Shown: one piece after another, positions 20,037 through 25,802 of the stretch
Layout: the number at the start of each line of letters is the position of its first letter
Position numbering within the stretch: position 1 is the first letter of the stretch
Origin: Ezakiella peruensis
GTDB lineage: Bacteria; Bacillota; Clostridia; Tissierellales; Peptoniphilaceae
DNA: 64,000 nt
Direction of reading: 5' to 3'
Assembly: GCF_900215725.1 (NCBI RefSeq)
Contig: NZ_LT962469.1
Location: 597,365 to 661,364 of the forward strand
Program-made: the position numbers and the translations under genes
Notes under the pieces: generated by a model
What the model saw: only the letters and a program-made list of their open reading frames with translations
The model's database searches: none
Told to the model about the DNA's origin: nothing

Positions 20037-20696
20037 ATGAGAATATTACTTATTGAAGACAACAGGTCATTGGTTGAAACACTGAAGGATTTATTGGTAT
20101 CTAAAGGGTATGAAGTTGATTCTTATTATGATATAGATGATATTGAAGATTATATGATCCTTAATAAGTATAACTTAATAATTTTGGACTTAATGCTTGG
20201 TAAGAGGGATGGTTTAGATTTTTTAAAAACTATTCGTAATGATATAAATAGGCCGATTTTAATTTTAACAGCAAAATCTTCAAAAGATGACCAAATAAAA
20301 GGTTTGAATCTTGGAGCAGATGATTACATTACAAAACCCTTTGATGCAGATATTTTACTTGCAAGAATAAATACGCAATTAAGAAATCAAAATAAAGAAA
20401 AAGTTGTATTTAAGGAAACTGAATTTGATTTAAATATAGGGACCATTAGCAAGAAGGGCGAAATTTCTAGACTGACAAATTTTGAATTAGAAGTTTTAAA
20501 ATTACTCTACACAAATAAAAACAAAATTTTATCAAAAGCACAGATGATTTCAATGTTGCCAACACAAAGTGAAGAGGTTACAGAGCGTACAATTGTGTCT
20601 CATATATATAATATTAGAAAAAAGATTTTGGAGATAAATGCAGATGATCCAATAGAAAATAAATGGGGAGTGGGATATAGATGGAAAGAAAGATAA
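20037..20696 (+). CDS. OmpR-family response regulator
   Basis: This 219-aa regulator has a receiver domain with acidic pocket E7-D8, phospho-acceptor Asp51 (IILDLMLG), and Lys100 (ITKPF), and a C-terminal winged helix with FELEVLKLLYTNKNKILSKAQMI and the wing GVGYRW. It should bind direct repeats near its targets. It overlaps the kinase gene by 16 bp. Its partner genes (membrane ORF, secreted protein) suggest it controls the accessory island, but that is inference. Confidence 0.93.
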   Translation: MRILLIEDNRSLVETLKDLLVSKGYEVDSYYDIDDIEDYMILNKYNLIILDLMLGKRDGLDFLKTIRNDINRPILILTAKSSKDDQIKGLNLGADDYITKPFDADILLARINTQLRNQNKEKVVFKETEFDLNIGTISKKGEISRLTNFELEVLKLLYTNKNKILSKAQMISMLPTQSEEVTERTIVSHIYNIRKKILEINADDPIENKWGVGYRWKER

Positions 20697-21712
20697 GGCA
20701 GATAATATCTAGCTATATATTGGGTTATTTATTAAAAATATTCTTTACAACAATTATATCGTTAATAATCATTAATATATATCAAAAATATGGATTTAGA
20801 CTTATCAATATTAAATTCAAAACCTCGATTGAGCTTACATTTGGAGTTTTTGTATTAGCATTTATATTTTTTTCTTATAAGTTTTATGAAAAAATAGATA
20901 GTCTTATAATGAAAGATTTAGGCAATATAATTAATGGCATAAACCATAATTATTTTAAAAATGATATGAACTCTGTAGAATTTAAAAAGATTCAAGATGC
21001 ATTAATTGATAAAAATAAAAAAATTGTAGAAAAGGAAAATTTTGTTTACTCAAGCCTATCCTATATAAGCCATGATATGAAAACGCCAATTACTGTAATA
21101 AATACAAATGTGAATTTAATAAAAAATACAAAAATGCTTGAAGGAAAGAATATAGAAAGATTAAATAGGATAGAAGCTGAAGCAGATAAAGTATCGGATT
21201 ATATAGAAAAATTAATGGATGTAAGTCAAAGTTTTTATGAAATAGAGGAAAGGGAAAAAATAAAAATTGTTGATTTGTTAGCAAATTTAAAAAAGAATGT
21301 AGAGATATATTCTGACTTAAGAGAAGAAGAGATTATTTTTGAGAGTAGTGTGGGTGAAGATTTTTATGTTTTAGCTAATATGAATAAGCTACAAAAATCC
21401 TTTGTTCATCTTCTAAACAATGCTTACGAGCATAGAAGAGAGTATATTAAAATAAAAACAAGTATTAAAGATGAAAAACTATTAATTGATGTAATAGATG
21501 ATGGATTGGGATTTAATAAAGAATCGATAAACAGAGCAAAGGAAATATTTTATACAGATAATTATGGTAGGACTTCTGGAAAGGGTTATGGGATTGGACT
21601 CTATTATGTAGATTCCTATATGGAAAGTTTATCGGGTGAGTTAATTTTACAAAATAACAATGATGGCGGGGCATTGCAGAGAATGCGAATCCCATTTAGC
21701 AGGGGTGAATAA
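20681..21712 (+). CDS. Sensor histidine kinase, intramembrane-sensing type
   Basis: This 343-aa kinase has two predicted membrane helices (about residues 12-33 and 50-68) joined by a loop of only about 16 residues, so it lacks a real extracellular sensor domain. H-box SYISHDMKTPIT puts the phospho-His at 131; the N box is HLLNNAYEH, G boxes DDGLGF and GKGYGIGL. Short-loop kinases in Firmicutes often read membrane or ABC-transporter partners. It overlaps the regulator gene and is followed at once by a small membrane ORF. Its AT content looks higher than its neighbours'. Confidence 0.92.
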   Translation: MERKIRQIISSYILGYLLKIFFTTIISLIIINIYQKYGFRLINIKFKTSIELTFGVFVLAFIFFSYKFYEKIDSLIMKDLGNIINGINHNYFKNDMNSVEFKKIQDALIDKNKKIVEKENFVYSSLSYISHDMKTPITVINTNVNLIKNTKMLEGKNIERLNRIEAEADKVSDYIEKLMDVSQSFYEIEEREKIKIVDLLANLKKNVEIYSDLREEEIIFESSVGEDFYVLANMNKLQKSFVHLLNNAYEHRREYIKIKTSIKDEKLLIDVIDDGLGFNKESINRAKEIFYTDNYGRTSGKGYGIGLYYVDSYMESLSGELILQNNNDGGALQRMRIPFSRGE

Positions 21713-21713
21713 T

Positions 21714-21950
21714 ATGGAAAACATTTTATTTATAATAGTGCTTGCATTATTTATACTGATTGATTCATATAGAATACTTAGAGGTAGAATTGACTTTTAT
21801 AATTTTTATAGGCCGCTATCGCTGGTTATAATTTACAGGTATATTTTGGATAATATAAGGATTCAAGCATTGTATGTTGCTTTAGTATACATGCTTATAT
21901 GCTATCTGTTTATATTAAGAAGTTTAAATCGGAAAGATTATGAATGCTAA
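21714..21950 (+). CDS. Small hypothetical membrane protein (78 aa)
   Basis: The ATG lies one base after the kinase stop behind AGGGGTG, and the frame runs to TAA at 21950. The product has hydrophobic stretches at about residues 3-20, 33-47 and 52-68, and basic ends, so it is probably an integral membrane protein with two or three helices. I do not recognise the family. Coupling to the kinase suggests a sensor accessory or immunity role; this is inference. Confidence 0.7.
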   Translation: MENILFIIVLALFILIDSYRILRGRIDFYNFYRPLSLVIIYRYILDNIRIQALYVALVYMLICYLFILRSLNRKDYEC

Positions 21951-22232
21951 TAATTTTTAACAGTTAAGAAACAAATATAAGTTATTGTATTCAATTATAT
22001 AAGCTCAAAGAATAGGAATCTTTAAATAATTTTATGACTTAAGTTAGAATAAAAGTAATTTAAAAGAGAATCTTTACTTTTACTTGATTATATTGATATA
22101 TAATAAACAAAATAGGAGCTAAAGAGCTAATAAAATTTTTATTAAAAATCAAAATACAAATAGGAGGTTAAAAAATAAAGTTATGATTATTGATAAAAAT
22201 TATATAATAAAATATTAAAGGAGGAAGAAATA
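21951..22232 (+). promoter_or_regulatory. AT-rich intergenic region with repeats upstream of secreted protein
   Basis: This 282-bp gap contains two copies of GAATCTTTA (22016-22024 and 22068-22076, 52 bp apart), a candidate -10 TATAAT (22099-22104) without a clear -35, and an AGGAGGT (22162-22168) followed too distantly by an 11-codon ORF (22183-22218). The true ribosome binding site of the next gene is AAAGGAGGAA near 22218-22227. The repeats are candidate response-regulator sites. Confidence 0.4.
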
Positions 22233-22688
22233 ATGAAAAAATTAATATCAATATTATTGGTAGTATTTATTGCAACAAACTTCACAGTTTTAAGTGCTAA
22301 AAAAATGGAAAGTGTCGATACCGCAGAGACAAAATTAAATAATGAGTTAAAAGAGAAAATCCATAAAATAAATAATGCCAATAATGGGAATGTTAAAATA
22401 AGTGAATTTACTGATTATGAAATTGAATTACTGGGCGCAACAGCTGTATTAATTTTTGTTGCTGGTATTCTTGTGGGATATTTAGTAGATGGGGTTATTA
22501 TTTATGAAACAGGACAATCAGCAGGGTACTGGGTATCTGAAGTAATACGATGGGTTTCTTCAGATAGCAGAATATCTAAAATATATGTAGATTCAAATGA
22601 CGAAGTAATCAGAGCAGAGGATAACCAAAGATGTTATAAGAGCTCCTATAGTGGAAAGTGGCATTGCCAAGTAGGTCCAGTATGGTAA
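22233..22688 (+). CDS. Secreted hypothetical protein with C-terminal cysteine pair
   Basis: This 151-aa protein has an N-terminal signal peptide (MKK then hydrophobic 4-20, probable cleavage after SA near 22), a charged helical spacer (25-60), a Gly-rich hydrophobic segment 65-91 containing FVAGILVG, and a polar aromatic tail with only two cysteines, Cys134 and Cys145, ending in Trp. I do not recognise the family. Size, signal peptide, glycine-rich hydrophobic segment and probable disulfide resemble bacteriocin-like or cell-surface toxin precursors, but no known motif supports that. A strong ribosome binding site suggests high expression. It overlaps the next 33-codon ORF by 7 bp. Confidence 0.75.
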   Translation: MKKLISILLVVFIATNFTVLSAKKMESVDTAETKLNNELKEKIHKINNANNGNVKISEFTDYEIELLGATAVLIFVAGILVGYLVDGVIIYETGQSAGYWVSEVIRWVSSDSRISKIYVDSNDEVIRAEDNQRCYKSSYSGKWHCQVGPVW

Positions 22689-22783
22689 GAGATAATAACG
22701 AGAAAAAATATATTAAATATATATTTTTATTTGTAGCAGGTATTGTCGTTGGTATGATTTTAAGAACTGTACTCAAAATATAA
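22682..22783 (+). CDS. 33-aa membrane peptide coupled to the secreted protein
   Basis: ATG 22682 lies within the preceding gene's end (ATGGTAA overlap) and the frame runs to TAA at 22781-22783. The peptide is a charged head (MVRDNNEKKY) plus one hydrophobic helix with FVAGIVVG at 17-24, nearly identical to FVAGILVG in the upstream protein, and a basic end. No strong ribosome binding site is visible, so translation is probably coupled to the upstream gene. It could be an immunity or partner peptide; function unknown. Confidence 0.6.
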   Translation: MVRDNNEKKYIKYIFLFVAGIVVGMILRTVLKI

Positions 22784-22823
22784 ATTTAATATAAAAGATA
22801 AAGGAAATTAATAAAAAATTAAA

Positions 22824-22866
22824 AATACTGCTAAAGATAAGACCATAATCTTTGGCAGTATTTTTA
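22824..22866 (+). terminator. Intrinsic terminator closing the accessory island
   Basis: AATACTGC-T-AAAGAT (22824-22838) pairs with ATCTTTGGCAGTATT (22848-22862), followed by a T run. Confidence 0.85.
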
Positions 22867-22900
22867 TGTCTTTTTAATCACAATAAATCTACTAAATCGC

Positions 22901-22929
22901 TTGCTTTAATCCTATTTTTATGGTACAAT
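22901..22929 (+). promoter_or_regulatory. rpsB operon promoter
   Basis: -35 TTGCTT (22901-22906), 17-bp spacer, -10 TACAAT (22924-22929). Start expected near 22936, giving a leader of about 93 nt. Confidence 0.8.
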
Positions 22930-22935
22930 ACGTCT

Positions 22936-23028
22936 GTGATTACTCACGCACTTTGATGCAGGTACGGTTGCCTTTAAGGTCTCACTTGCAGAAGATGAGT
23001 GCGGAAGAATATAAACCGGAGGTGTAAA
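22936..23028 (+). promoter_or_regulatory. Structured rpsB leader (candidate ribosomal protein leader)
   Basis: The leader is noticeably richer in GC than the DNA around it. CGCACT (22947-22952) can pair with AGTGCG (22998-23003), enclosing a small CCTT-T-AAGG palindrome; GTGA (22936-22939) can pair with TCAC (22944-22947) in an alternative fold. Autogenous leaders before rpsB are known in other bacteria; membership in a known family is untested. Confidence 0.45.
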
Positions 23029-23805
23029 ATGAGTGTAATTACTATGAAAGGCTTATTAGAAGCAGGTGTTCATTTCGGACACCAAACAAGAAGATGGAAC
23101 CCAAAGATGGCAGAGTTCATCTTTACAGAAAGAAATGGAATCTACATTATCGACCTACAAAAAACTGTTAAGCAAATTGAAAAGGCTTACAAGTTTGTAA
23201 AAGAAGTTGTAGAAGATGGCGGCAAAGTTATGTTCGTAGGAACAAAGACTCAAGCCCAAGAAGCTATCGAATCAGAAGCTAAGAGATGCGAAATGCCATT
23301 TGTTAACCAAAGATGGTTAGGCGGCATGATGACAAACTATCAAACAATTAAAAAATCAATTGATAGGTTAGAAGAACTAGAACAAATGGAAGAAGATGGA
23401 ACTTTTGAAGCTCTTCCTAAGAAAGAGGTTATCGAACTTCGTCACGAAATCGAAAGATTACAAAAATTCTTAGGCGGAATTAAGGATTTCCCAGGTCTAC
23501 CACAATGCTTATTTGTAATTGACCCAAGCAAAGAATACATTGCTGTTAATGAAGCAAGAATTCTTGGAATTCCTGTAGTTGGTGTTGTAGATACAAACTG
23601 TGACCCAGATCAAGTTGACATCCCAATTCCTGCAAATGACGATGCTATCAGAAGCGTTAAACTTATTACAGAAACAATCGCTAATGCAGTTATCGAAGCT
23701 AAACAAGGTGAACAATATTCTGTTGAAGAAGATGACGCTGAAGAAGAAGTAGATCAAGATACAATGGAAGCTGAAATCAACAGCTCCAAAGAAGATCAAG
23801 AATAA
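23029..23805 (+). CDS. rpsB: 30S ribosomal protein S2
   Basis: This 258-aa protein begins [27 protein letters not shown] and has the S2 signatures [27 protein letters not shown] and [16 protein letters not shown] choose ATG 23029 behind GGAGGTG rather than the in-frame GTG 10 codons upstream, which has no ribosome binding site. The C-terminus has an acidic tail. It heads rpsB-tsf-pyrH-frr. Confidence 0.98.
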
Positions 23806-23833
23806 ATATTATTAAGAATAGGAGTGGTAAATT

Positions 23834-24481
23834 ATGGAAATTACAGCAAGCATGGTTAAAGAACTAAGAGATAAAACTGGCGTAGGCATGATGGACTGCA
23901 GAAAAGCTCTTCAAGAAACAAATGGAGATGTTGAAAAAGCTATTGATTATTTAAGAGAAAAAGGACTTTCAAAAGCTGCTAAAAAAGCATCCAGAATTGC
24001 TGCTGAAGGTATTGTTGAAAGCTACATTCACGGCGGAAGAATCGGAGTTTTGGTTGAAGTAAATACTGAAACTGACTTCGTTGCAAAGAACGAAGACTTC
24101 AAAGCTTTTGTTAAAGACTTAGCAATGCAAGTTGCAGCAAGCAATCCTCAATATGTTTCAAGAGAAGAAGTTCCAGCTGAAGTTATTGAACACGAAAAAG
24201 AAGTTCTAAAACAACAAGCAGTTAATGAAGGAAAACCTGAAGAAATTGCTCACAAAATGGTTGAAGGCAGAATCAACAAATACTACACAGAAGTTTGCTT
24301 GCTAGAACAACCATTCATCAAAGATCCAGACAAGTCAGTTCAAGATCTCTTAAATGATTTGATTACAAAAATTGGAGAAAACATTAAAGTTAGACGCTTT
24401 ACAAGATATGAAGTTGGTGAAGGACTAGAAAAAAGAGAAGAAAACTTCGCTGATGAAGTTGCAAAGCAAATGAACGTTTAA
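23834..24481 (+). CDS. tsf: Elongation factor Ts
   Basis: This 215-aa protein has the EF-Ts N-terminal UBA-like domain with [16 protein letters not shown], then [24 protein letters not shown] and a single compact core domain; the length matches the short Gram-positive form. It recycles EF-Tu-GDP to EF-Tu-GTP. It follows rpsB by 28 bp, behind AGGAGTGG. Confidence 0.98.
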
Positions 24482-24492
24482 TAGGAGCTTTT

Positions 24493-25209
24493 ATGTCAAC
24501 GAAGAATAGAGTAGTATTAAAACTATCTGGCGAATCAATGGCTGGAGGAAAAGGTACTGGAATTGATATGGATTTTGTTTATGAATTAGCAAAATCTATC
24601 AAAGAAGGTAAGACAGCGGACAATGAAATTGCAATTGTTGTTGGTGGAGGCAATTTTTGGAGGGGCAGAGATGCCAAGATTATTGAAAGGGCAACCTCAG
24701 ATTATATGGGTATGCTTGGAACAGTAATGAATGCTTTGGCGCTTCAATCTTCTCTGGAAAAAATTGGTGTAGAAACCAGAGTTCAAACCTCTATACAAAT
24801 GCAAGAAGTCGCAGAGCCTTATATTATGAGAAGGGCTATTCGTCATTTAGAAAAAGGAAGAGTAGTTATCTTCGCAGCTGGTACTGGTAATCCGTACTTC
24901 TCGACTGATACTACTGCTGCTTTGAGAGCTGCTGAAATTGGCGCCTCATCAATACTTGTTGCAAAAAAAGGTGTTGATGGTGTTTATTCAGCTGATCCAA
25001 AGATTGACCCCAATGCTACTAAATTTGATAATTTGACATACTCCGATATTTTAAGATTAAACTTAAAAATATTAGATTCCACTGCTACAAGCCTATGTAT
25101 GGATAACAACATTCCTTTGCTTGTCTTTGGAATTGACGAAACAGAAAATATAACTAGAGCTTTAAAAGGCGAAAAAATTGGAACTATCATAAGGAGGAAC
25201 AATGATTAA
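24493..25209 (+). CDS. pyrH: UMP kinase
   Basis: This 238-aa amino-acid-kinase fold protein has [15 protein letters not shown] near 7, [12 protein letters not shown] near 51, [14 protein letters not shown]-type segment [17 protein letters not shown], and [17 protein letters not shown]. It phosphorylates UMP to UDP and is the usual third gene after tsf. It overlaps frr by 8 bp, with the frr ribosome binding site AAGGAGG inside its last codons. Confidence 0.98.
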
Positions 25210-25759
25210 CGAAATTTTCAAAGATGCTGAAGACAGAATGTCAAAATCAGTATCTGTTTATAAAGAAGATCTTGCAGCAATTAGAGCTGGAAGAGCAAAT
25301 CCTGCTTTGTTAGATAGAATTGATGTTGATTACTATGGTGTAATGACTCCAATTAAACAACTTTCAAATATATCTGCTCCAGAACCAAGGCTGATTGTAA
25401 TTCAACCTTTCGATGCAAATGTTATCCCTGAAATTGAAAAGGCAATATTGGCATCTGATTTGGGACTAAACCCTGCTAATGATGGAAAGGTTGTTAGACT
25501 TGCAATCCCACAACTCACTGAGGAAAGACGTAAAGACTTAACAAAGCTTGTAGGAAAGTCAAGTGAAGAAGCTAAGGTTAATATTAGAAATATTCGTCGT
25601 GACCTGATTGATGGAATTAAAAAACTCGAAAAAGATAAAGAAATCACAGAAGACGATAGAAAGAGATCAGAAACTGAAGCTCAAGAGCTAACAGATAAAT
25701 TTATTGAAAGTATTGATAAGCTTACAAAAGAAAAAGAAGCTGAACTGATGGAAATTTAA
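25202..25759 (+). CDS. frr: Ribosome recycling factor
   Basis: This 185-aa protein has the RRF signatures [19 protein letters not shown] and [18 protein letters not shown] and ends in the long helical domain. It splits post-termination ribosomes with EF-G. It is the last gene of the operon; a terminator follows. Confidence 0.98.
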
Positions 25760-25770
25760 TTTTCATGTCA

Positions 25771-25802
25771 AAGCACTTTGCTTTATGCAAGGTGCTTTTT
25801 TT
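25771..25802 (+). terminator. Intrinsic terminator after frr
   Basis: AAGCACTTTGC (25771-25781) pairs with GCAAGGTGCTT (25787-25797, with a G-T wobble) over a 5-nt loop and is followed by a T run. Confidence 0.88.

Follow-up and report, generated by a model that had tools for sequence, protein, structure and literature searches.

The closest described counterparts of the gene pair analyzed here are bacteriocins encoded beside a small membrane protein that protects the producer. The immunity protein of carnobacteriocin XY, CbnZ, has 42 residues, forms a single helix with its N-terminus inside and is encoded immediately downstream, and the excerpted text of the same source calls the immunity mechanism of two-peptide (class IIb) bacteriocins a mystery (PMC6957408). 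Dysgalacticin is a Sec-exported protein of 220 residues with an adjacent membrane-associated immunity protein, DysI; like streptococcin A-M57, the other class IIIb example in these excerpts, it is plasmid-encoded in streptococci (PMC8308785, PMC10086258). The pair that we compared with these systems lies in a 64,000-nucleotide (nt) stretch of the Ezakiella peruensis genome (contig NZ_LT962469.1, positions 597,365 to 661,364, forward strand), the whole of which we call the window, and consists of a gene for a 151-residue protein (P0001) and an adjoining small open reading frame (ORF) for a 33-residue peptide (P0002). We read the large gene as coding for a secreted bacteriocin that acts on membranes, and the small one for an immunity peptide made of a single helix, which may be a decoy subunit; to this reading we give a probability of about 0.72.

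As in class IIb systems with CbnZ, the putative killer has a GxxxG helix and a single-helix protein is encoded immediately downstream; unlike them (PMC6957408 in excerpt, CbnZ being compared by description only), the window has one larger Sec-type toxin, the partners in its family go down to 26 residues, and the partner resembles the toxin helix. GxxxG occurs in both products of the window pair, as class IIb would have it, but two secreted peptides with leaders were not found by eye or hydropathy. Predicted Sec export, an adjacent partner that is probably membrane-bound and the plasmid location of the streptococcal relative recall the larger dysgalacticin, again by description only. Circular bacteriocins likewise have a tiny, hydrophobic immunity protein, theirs being small, cationic and hydrophobic, and are set apart by the Sec-type leader seen here (PMC6131525, in excerpt). 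The Caulobacter killers CdzC/D are glycine-zipper proteins accompanied by a small inner-membrane immunity protein, CdzI, but they are two proteins secreted by a type I route in a Gram-negative organism (PMC5380434, in excerpt). Perfrin (PMC3992141) and EF1097 (PMC3667150) were considered by description only, from excerpts. The features of the locus are as follows.

22217..22224, plus strand: Shine-Dalgarno sequence AAAGGAGG of the 151-residue gene
22233..22688, plus strand: bacteriocin-like precursor of 151 residues (ORF translation and family alignments)
22431..22550, plus strand: conserved core, residues 67-106 of the 151-residue protein (alignment of 10 members)
22632..22667, plus strand: Cys134 to Cys145 of the 151-residue protein, a possible disulphide loop
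22682..22783, plus strand: single-helix membrane peptide of 33 residues (33-codon ORF), proposed immunity peptide
22820..22866, plus strand: intrinsic terminator hairpin closing the pair (by folding)
21919..22681, no strand assigned: stretch without counterpart in sister species G005, which has 70 unaligned nt there

The 151-residue protein consists of a signal peptide (residues ~1-22, by eye), a variable linker, a hydrophobic core (~67-106) and a C-terminal tail carrying its only two cysteines, at positions 134 and 145; hydropathy placed hydrophobic stretches at residues 3-24, a signal-like N-terminal helix, and 63-93. Its ORF overlaps the small one by 7 nt, ATGGTAA, which holds the start of the small ORF and the stop of the large gene. 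The 33-residue peptide is a single helix with neither a signal peptide nor a double-glycine leader (by eye and hydropathy), and its FVAGIVVG differs from FVAGILVG of the larger protein at one residue and in 5 of 8 codons, the GxxxG of each product (GIVVG and GILVG, respectively) lying within this motif. Downstream, the hairpin at 22820-22866 has a 19-bp stem and a 9-nt loop, and the 101-nt stretch around it folds at -24.7 kcal/mol (z = -5.9); a simple terminator scan did not list this hairpin, which was recovered by folding. The original prediction, made from the letters of the window, had described the overlapping frames, the signal-like N-terminus, the hydrophobic segment, the cysteine pair, the shared motif in other codons and the strong terminator, and all of these held on ORF, hydropathy and folding analysis.

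A search of 199 genomes with P0001 alone gave, apart from P0001 itself, a single relative (G012; genomes and loci carry our identifiers), and the same query gave 17 matches in 72,556 plasmid records, 16 from Enterococcus and one from Lactococcus. Profile searches extended the family: in 398 genomes, four of five matches were accepted (G000, G253, G454 and G349; the G479 match covered the signal-peptide part only and was dropped); in 199 genomes, 3 of 12 at E ≤ 0.01 (G000, G012 and G062), the other nine matching in the N-terminal part only or lying in long or interrupted frames; in 245 genomes, two of five (G000 and G668), three being dropped; and in 130 genomes, five of nine (G000, G012, G062, G848 and G849), four being dropped. 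Smaller searches gave known members only (2/5, 1/7 and 1/37 genomes). A single core pattern run over a species-genome collection returned 79 stretches and three confirmed loci, those of G012, Vagococcus bubulae and an uncultured Erysipelothrix. A Streptococcus canis plasmid member had a weak first match (E 0.3) and was accepted on its architecture (signal peptide, core, two cysteines and an adjacent 27-residue ORF). The family is sparse, spread across several Bacillota lineages and partly plasmid-borne, on Enterococcus and Streptococcus plasmids, a distribution that we count in favor of a bacteriocin.

Members share a signal peptide, a variable linker, a glycine-rich hydrophobic core typically ending D-G-V-x4-T-G-x5-W, and usually two C-terminal cysteines. 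The part common to them is the core of ~40 residues, in which all 10 aligned members have G87, T93, G94 and W100. Close to the C-terminus, 9 of 10 Sec-type members have two cysteines spaced 5-13 positions; these are missing from the Enterococcus/Vagococcus version and from both double-glycine members described below, so the cysteine pair stressed in the original prediction is usual in Sec-type members and not universal. Degeneracy was read in five copies: an in-frame TAG interrupts the signal peptide of the four longer Enterococcus/Vagococcus copies examined (L003, L004, L005 and, via its genome match, L024), the copy on pVEF3 (L006) is without its 5' part, and the upstream partner is shortened in L003. 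These copies look silenced.

No Pfam or NCBIfam cut-off was reached by P0001 or P0002. The best sub-cut-off models for P0001 were FliZ in NCBIfam (21.4 bits, cut-off 306) and the Vps27 GAT-like family in Pfam (17.8, cut-off 27), both of which we rejected, and we took a JUQZ-1 match of the G454 protein (13.2 bits, cut-off 40) as chance. PHROGs gave nothing convincing for either protein and PADLOC no family at E ≤ 1; the G848 partner had one weak PADLOC match (2TM effector, E 0.019). P0001 had no match in 50,697 phage records, scans of IMG/VR gave no confirmed locus, a PDB search nothing meaningful and Rfam nothing. Neither the gene family nor the helix-mimicry idea set out below was found among the literature matches listed, a search whose scope left out most subscription papers.

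The association of the large gene with a small membrane ORF, which the original prediction expected to recur, held in 10 of 11 distinct loci. The partner overlaps downstream in the window, G012 and G253; lies downstream across a gap of 10-73 nt in G454, G848 and G849, S. canis (across the origin of the record) and G668; lies upstream in Enterococcus/Vagococcus and G062; and is convergent in Erysipelothrix. An automated rule found a small membrane ORF downstream of 8/13 family genes versus 9/133 background ORFs (Fisher p = 5.5e-6), or of 7/11 versus 9/133 with G848 and G849, and Enterococcus and Vagococcus, collapsed (p = 1.4e-5); the background was ORFs of at least 150 residues, some of them maybe spurious, in the window and seven other loci, four of which are the collinear stretch of G005, so that these ORFs are not all independent. 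The G062 match (Shine-Dalgarno score 2) is not its proposed partner, which leaves proposed partners at 7/13, and the rule passes over S. canis, where hydropathy is below threshold, the convergent partner of Erysipelothrix, and the upstream partners of Enterococcus and Vagococcus. Just one background ORF had a strong Shine-Dalgarno match, and that was the HlyD gene preceding the family member of G349. Partners lying upstream or convergently, and that of S. canis, were recognized by eye, which calls for caution in AT-rich DNA.

The partners also resemble the toxin core. We scored this likeness without gaps, with the signal peptide removed, against composition shuffles, the p-values being uncorrected. 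P0002 scored 44 with P0001 (against a mean of 21.5 for shuffles; p = 0.001, the lowest value that 1000 shuffles allow), and among the 53 window ORFs of at least 150 residues, P0001 included, P0001 was its best match; the runners-up were a protein without a predicted membrane segment (37) and, as the best other protein with one, a protein scoring 30. Across the family, 8 of 10 pairs had p ≤ 0.03, seven of these p ≤ 0.013. In the window, G012, G253 and Enterococcus, the first GxxxG glycine of the partner falls on that of the core or its counterpart, and GxxxG is present in both products of the window, G012, Enterococcus and G668 pairs, not in all pairs. For G848 and G062 it is DG-x5-TG[HK] that matches; the G848/G849 partner reads IDGIILYATGHQAGWW where the G848 toxin reads VDGAIISTTGHSAGWW (score 77, shuffled maximum 40), the partner in that genus copying the toxin motif almost whole.

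Two relatives carry the core behind another leader. Profiles from which double-glycine sequences were absent found it in G349 (E 7.4e-7) and G668 (E 2.5e-11), in both cases behind a leader ending VNGG. Ahead of the G349 gene stand genes for an ATP-binding cassette (ABC) transporter, which has a C39 peptidase domain (E 8.9e-39), and for an HlyD-family protein; double-glycine bacteriocins are usually exported by such a system. Against TIGR03949, the NCBIfam model for lactobin A/cerein 7B, the G668 peptide scores 23.2 bits and passes the cut-off of 21.5, in a match spanning the leader and the start of the core only; the G349 peptide falls below (18.6 against 21.5), P0001 had no match, and the same was true of all seven Sec-type members scanned. 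Since the core stands behind double-glycine leaders, and once beside a C39 exporter, it is bacteriocin-like, and with the Sec-type members these relatives put the same core behind either export signal; both kinds of signal are known for class II bacteriocins. The double-glycine relatives thus support export and a bacteriocin-like role of the core, as far as sequence can tell.

Partners also occur without a toxin. Over ~60 kb the sister species G005 runs collinear with the window, most aligned segments being 90-95% identical, yet it is missing the last 32 nt of a 78-residue membrane-protein gene, the spacer and the 151-residue gene except its last 7 nt; similarity restarts at the ATG of the small ORF. 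Its 33-residue ORF differs at one residue, has its own AAGGAGG and directly follows the G005 version of the 78-residue gene, and the profile search of 130 genomes gave no toxin match in G005. With the 33-residue peptide as query, 48 of 130 genomes gave a match at E ≤ 10, of which we accepted G000, G005 and G116; E-value or long frames disqualified the others, L076 alone of these having been read. The 33-residue orphan of G116, MNDDNKKKNYIGLFIIGIVVGLILSELIRKFLL (E 0.001), adjoins crp-like and hcp-like genes (named by eye), the same two that flank the G848/G849 pair on one side; the other flank differs, and G116 is not among the nine genomes with a toxin match in the profile search. If the partner is an immunity gene, copies of it without a toxin are to be expected. 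Comparing G848 with G849, we counted one nonsynonymous and three synonymous codon changes in the partner, and 14 and 6 in the toxin; for the small ORF this is suggestive of purifying selection, on which the original prediction had staked itself, with too few changes to prove it.

We infer from these observations that the 151-residue product would be a Sec-secreted bacteriocin precursor which, once processed, would kill competing Gram-positive cells, its glycine-rich helix and DG-x5-TG-x5-W core inserting into or acting on their membrane, and its C-terminal cysteine loop probably closed by a disulphide. The small ORF would supply the immunity peptide, a lone membrane helix similar to that of the toxin core, with its N-terminus predicted to be inside by the positive-inside rule. 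Protection would probably come from pairing with the incoming toxin helix through GxxxG-type contacts, blocking productive assembly. A more specific form of this idea, which we hold tentatively and at somewhat less than even odds, is helix mimicry, in which a 26-48-residue peptide that either arose from the toxin core or converged on it might join the toxin assembly as a dead-end subunit, a decoy. The original prediction, a precursor with a membrane partner that it placed in no known family, is supported by the 10/11 recurrence, the core behind double-glycine leaders and the orphan partners, and among the roles it offered for the partner (immunity, exporter tether or pore subunit) immunity fits best.

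Several observations weigh against an immunity peptide matched to a bacteriocin. No family member has a known activity. The order and strand of the partner vary among loci, the G454 partner has 70 residues and two helices, and G349 has no partner by the automated downstream rule. Likeness to the core was not significant in the G454 and Erysipelothrix pairs (p 0.27 and 0.38), the shuffles do not preserve hydrophobic order, and the cross matrix gave no cognate preference: for the window peptide the scores were 44 (own toxin) and 43 (G848 toxin), and for the G848 peptide 77 (own toxin) and 91 (window toxin). The orphan partners could be relics, and that of G005 lies within a stretch of high identity: relative to G005 (L082, L081), identity rises from ~94% to 98-99% right of the toxin stretch, from 22682 to ~25.8 kb, perhaps a recombination tract (22682-25800), a level that a few other 1-kb windows also reach. 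Conservation of the G005 ORF is therefore not by itself proof of selection.

If both products were exported and, as class IIb peptides do, formed a pore together through GxxxG contacts, GxxxG in both products of the four pairs named above and the likeness of partner to core helix would be expected; no partner, by eye, has a signal peptide or double-glycine leader before its helix, and orphan partners persist without the larger component, which makes such a two-component bacteriocin unlikely. A regulatory pair, in which either product would be a signal for the two-component system upstream (20037-21712), seems slightly less probable still. A response regulator, a kinase and the 78-residue membrane gene do lie directly upstream, and in G005 the 33-residue ORF directly follows them; against this, reading the ORF lists by eye showed no two-component genes next to the pair in G253, G454, G012 or the S. 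canis plasmid, a survey made without a dedicated family search, and within the genus the upstream kinase has a close match only in G005 (91%), the other four genomes giving 20-29% at best.

We consider an intracellular toxin-antitoxin or holin-antiholin pair of membrane proteins very improbable, the least likely of these alternatives. Two membrane-seeking products, overlapping genes and plasmid copies would suit it, and a shortened mimic could inhibit; the signal-like N-terminal helix and cysteine-bearing tail instead suit export, as do the double-glycine leaders and C39 exporter in relatives, and P0001 is without a match in the phage records or PADLOC models. A bacteriocin with an immunity peptide remains the reading that we prefer.

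The window segment 20037-21950 encodes an OmpR-type response regulator, a sensor kinase and the 78-residue membrane protein directly upstream of the pair; this two-component system may sense the bacteriocin. Just 5' of the toxin ribosome site, an 11-residue ORF (MIIDKNYIIKY, 22183-22218) begins 15 nt after AGGAGG, G848 and G849 likewise have AGGAGG with a tiny ORF upstream, and most shuffles fold less well than the 5' stretch 22040-22260 (z -2.4); the small ORF and the fold are a possible leader, possibly chance. In G253 (L034, 7883-11306), the pair comes after same-strand genes for an ABC ATPase and an ABC-2 permease, and ABC-2 and ATPase genes also lie 3' of the G349 peptide; they possibly serve extra immunity or export. 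A radical SAM/SPASM protein is encoded close to the G062 pair (L037, 8-2664), as is an ORF that by eye looks like an ABC transporter, on the opposite strand; they may form a peptide-modifying system of their own.

If our reading is correct, these genes make up a bacteriocin family that has, at most, the label 'hypothetical protein' in the plasmid records examined; found in several Bacillota lineages, it would combine two routes of export for a single core with a minimal immunity peptide, and the resemblance of partner to toxin makes the mechanism of self-protection directly testable. Helix mimicry, if true, would put the peptide with the smallest known immunity proteins of bacteriocins and give a concrete mechanism at a point where that of immunity to two-peptide bacteriocins was called a mystery (PMC6957408, in excerpt). 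The orphan partners suggest that protection is kept without the weapon.
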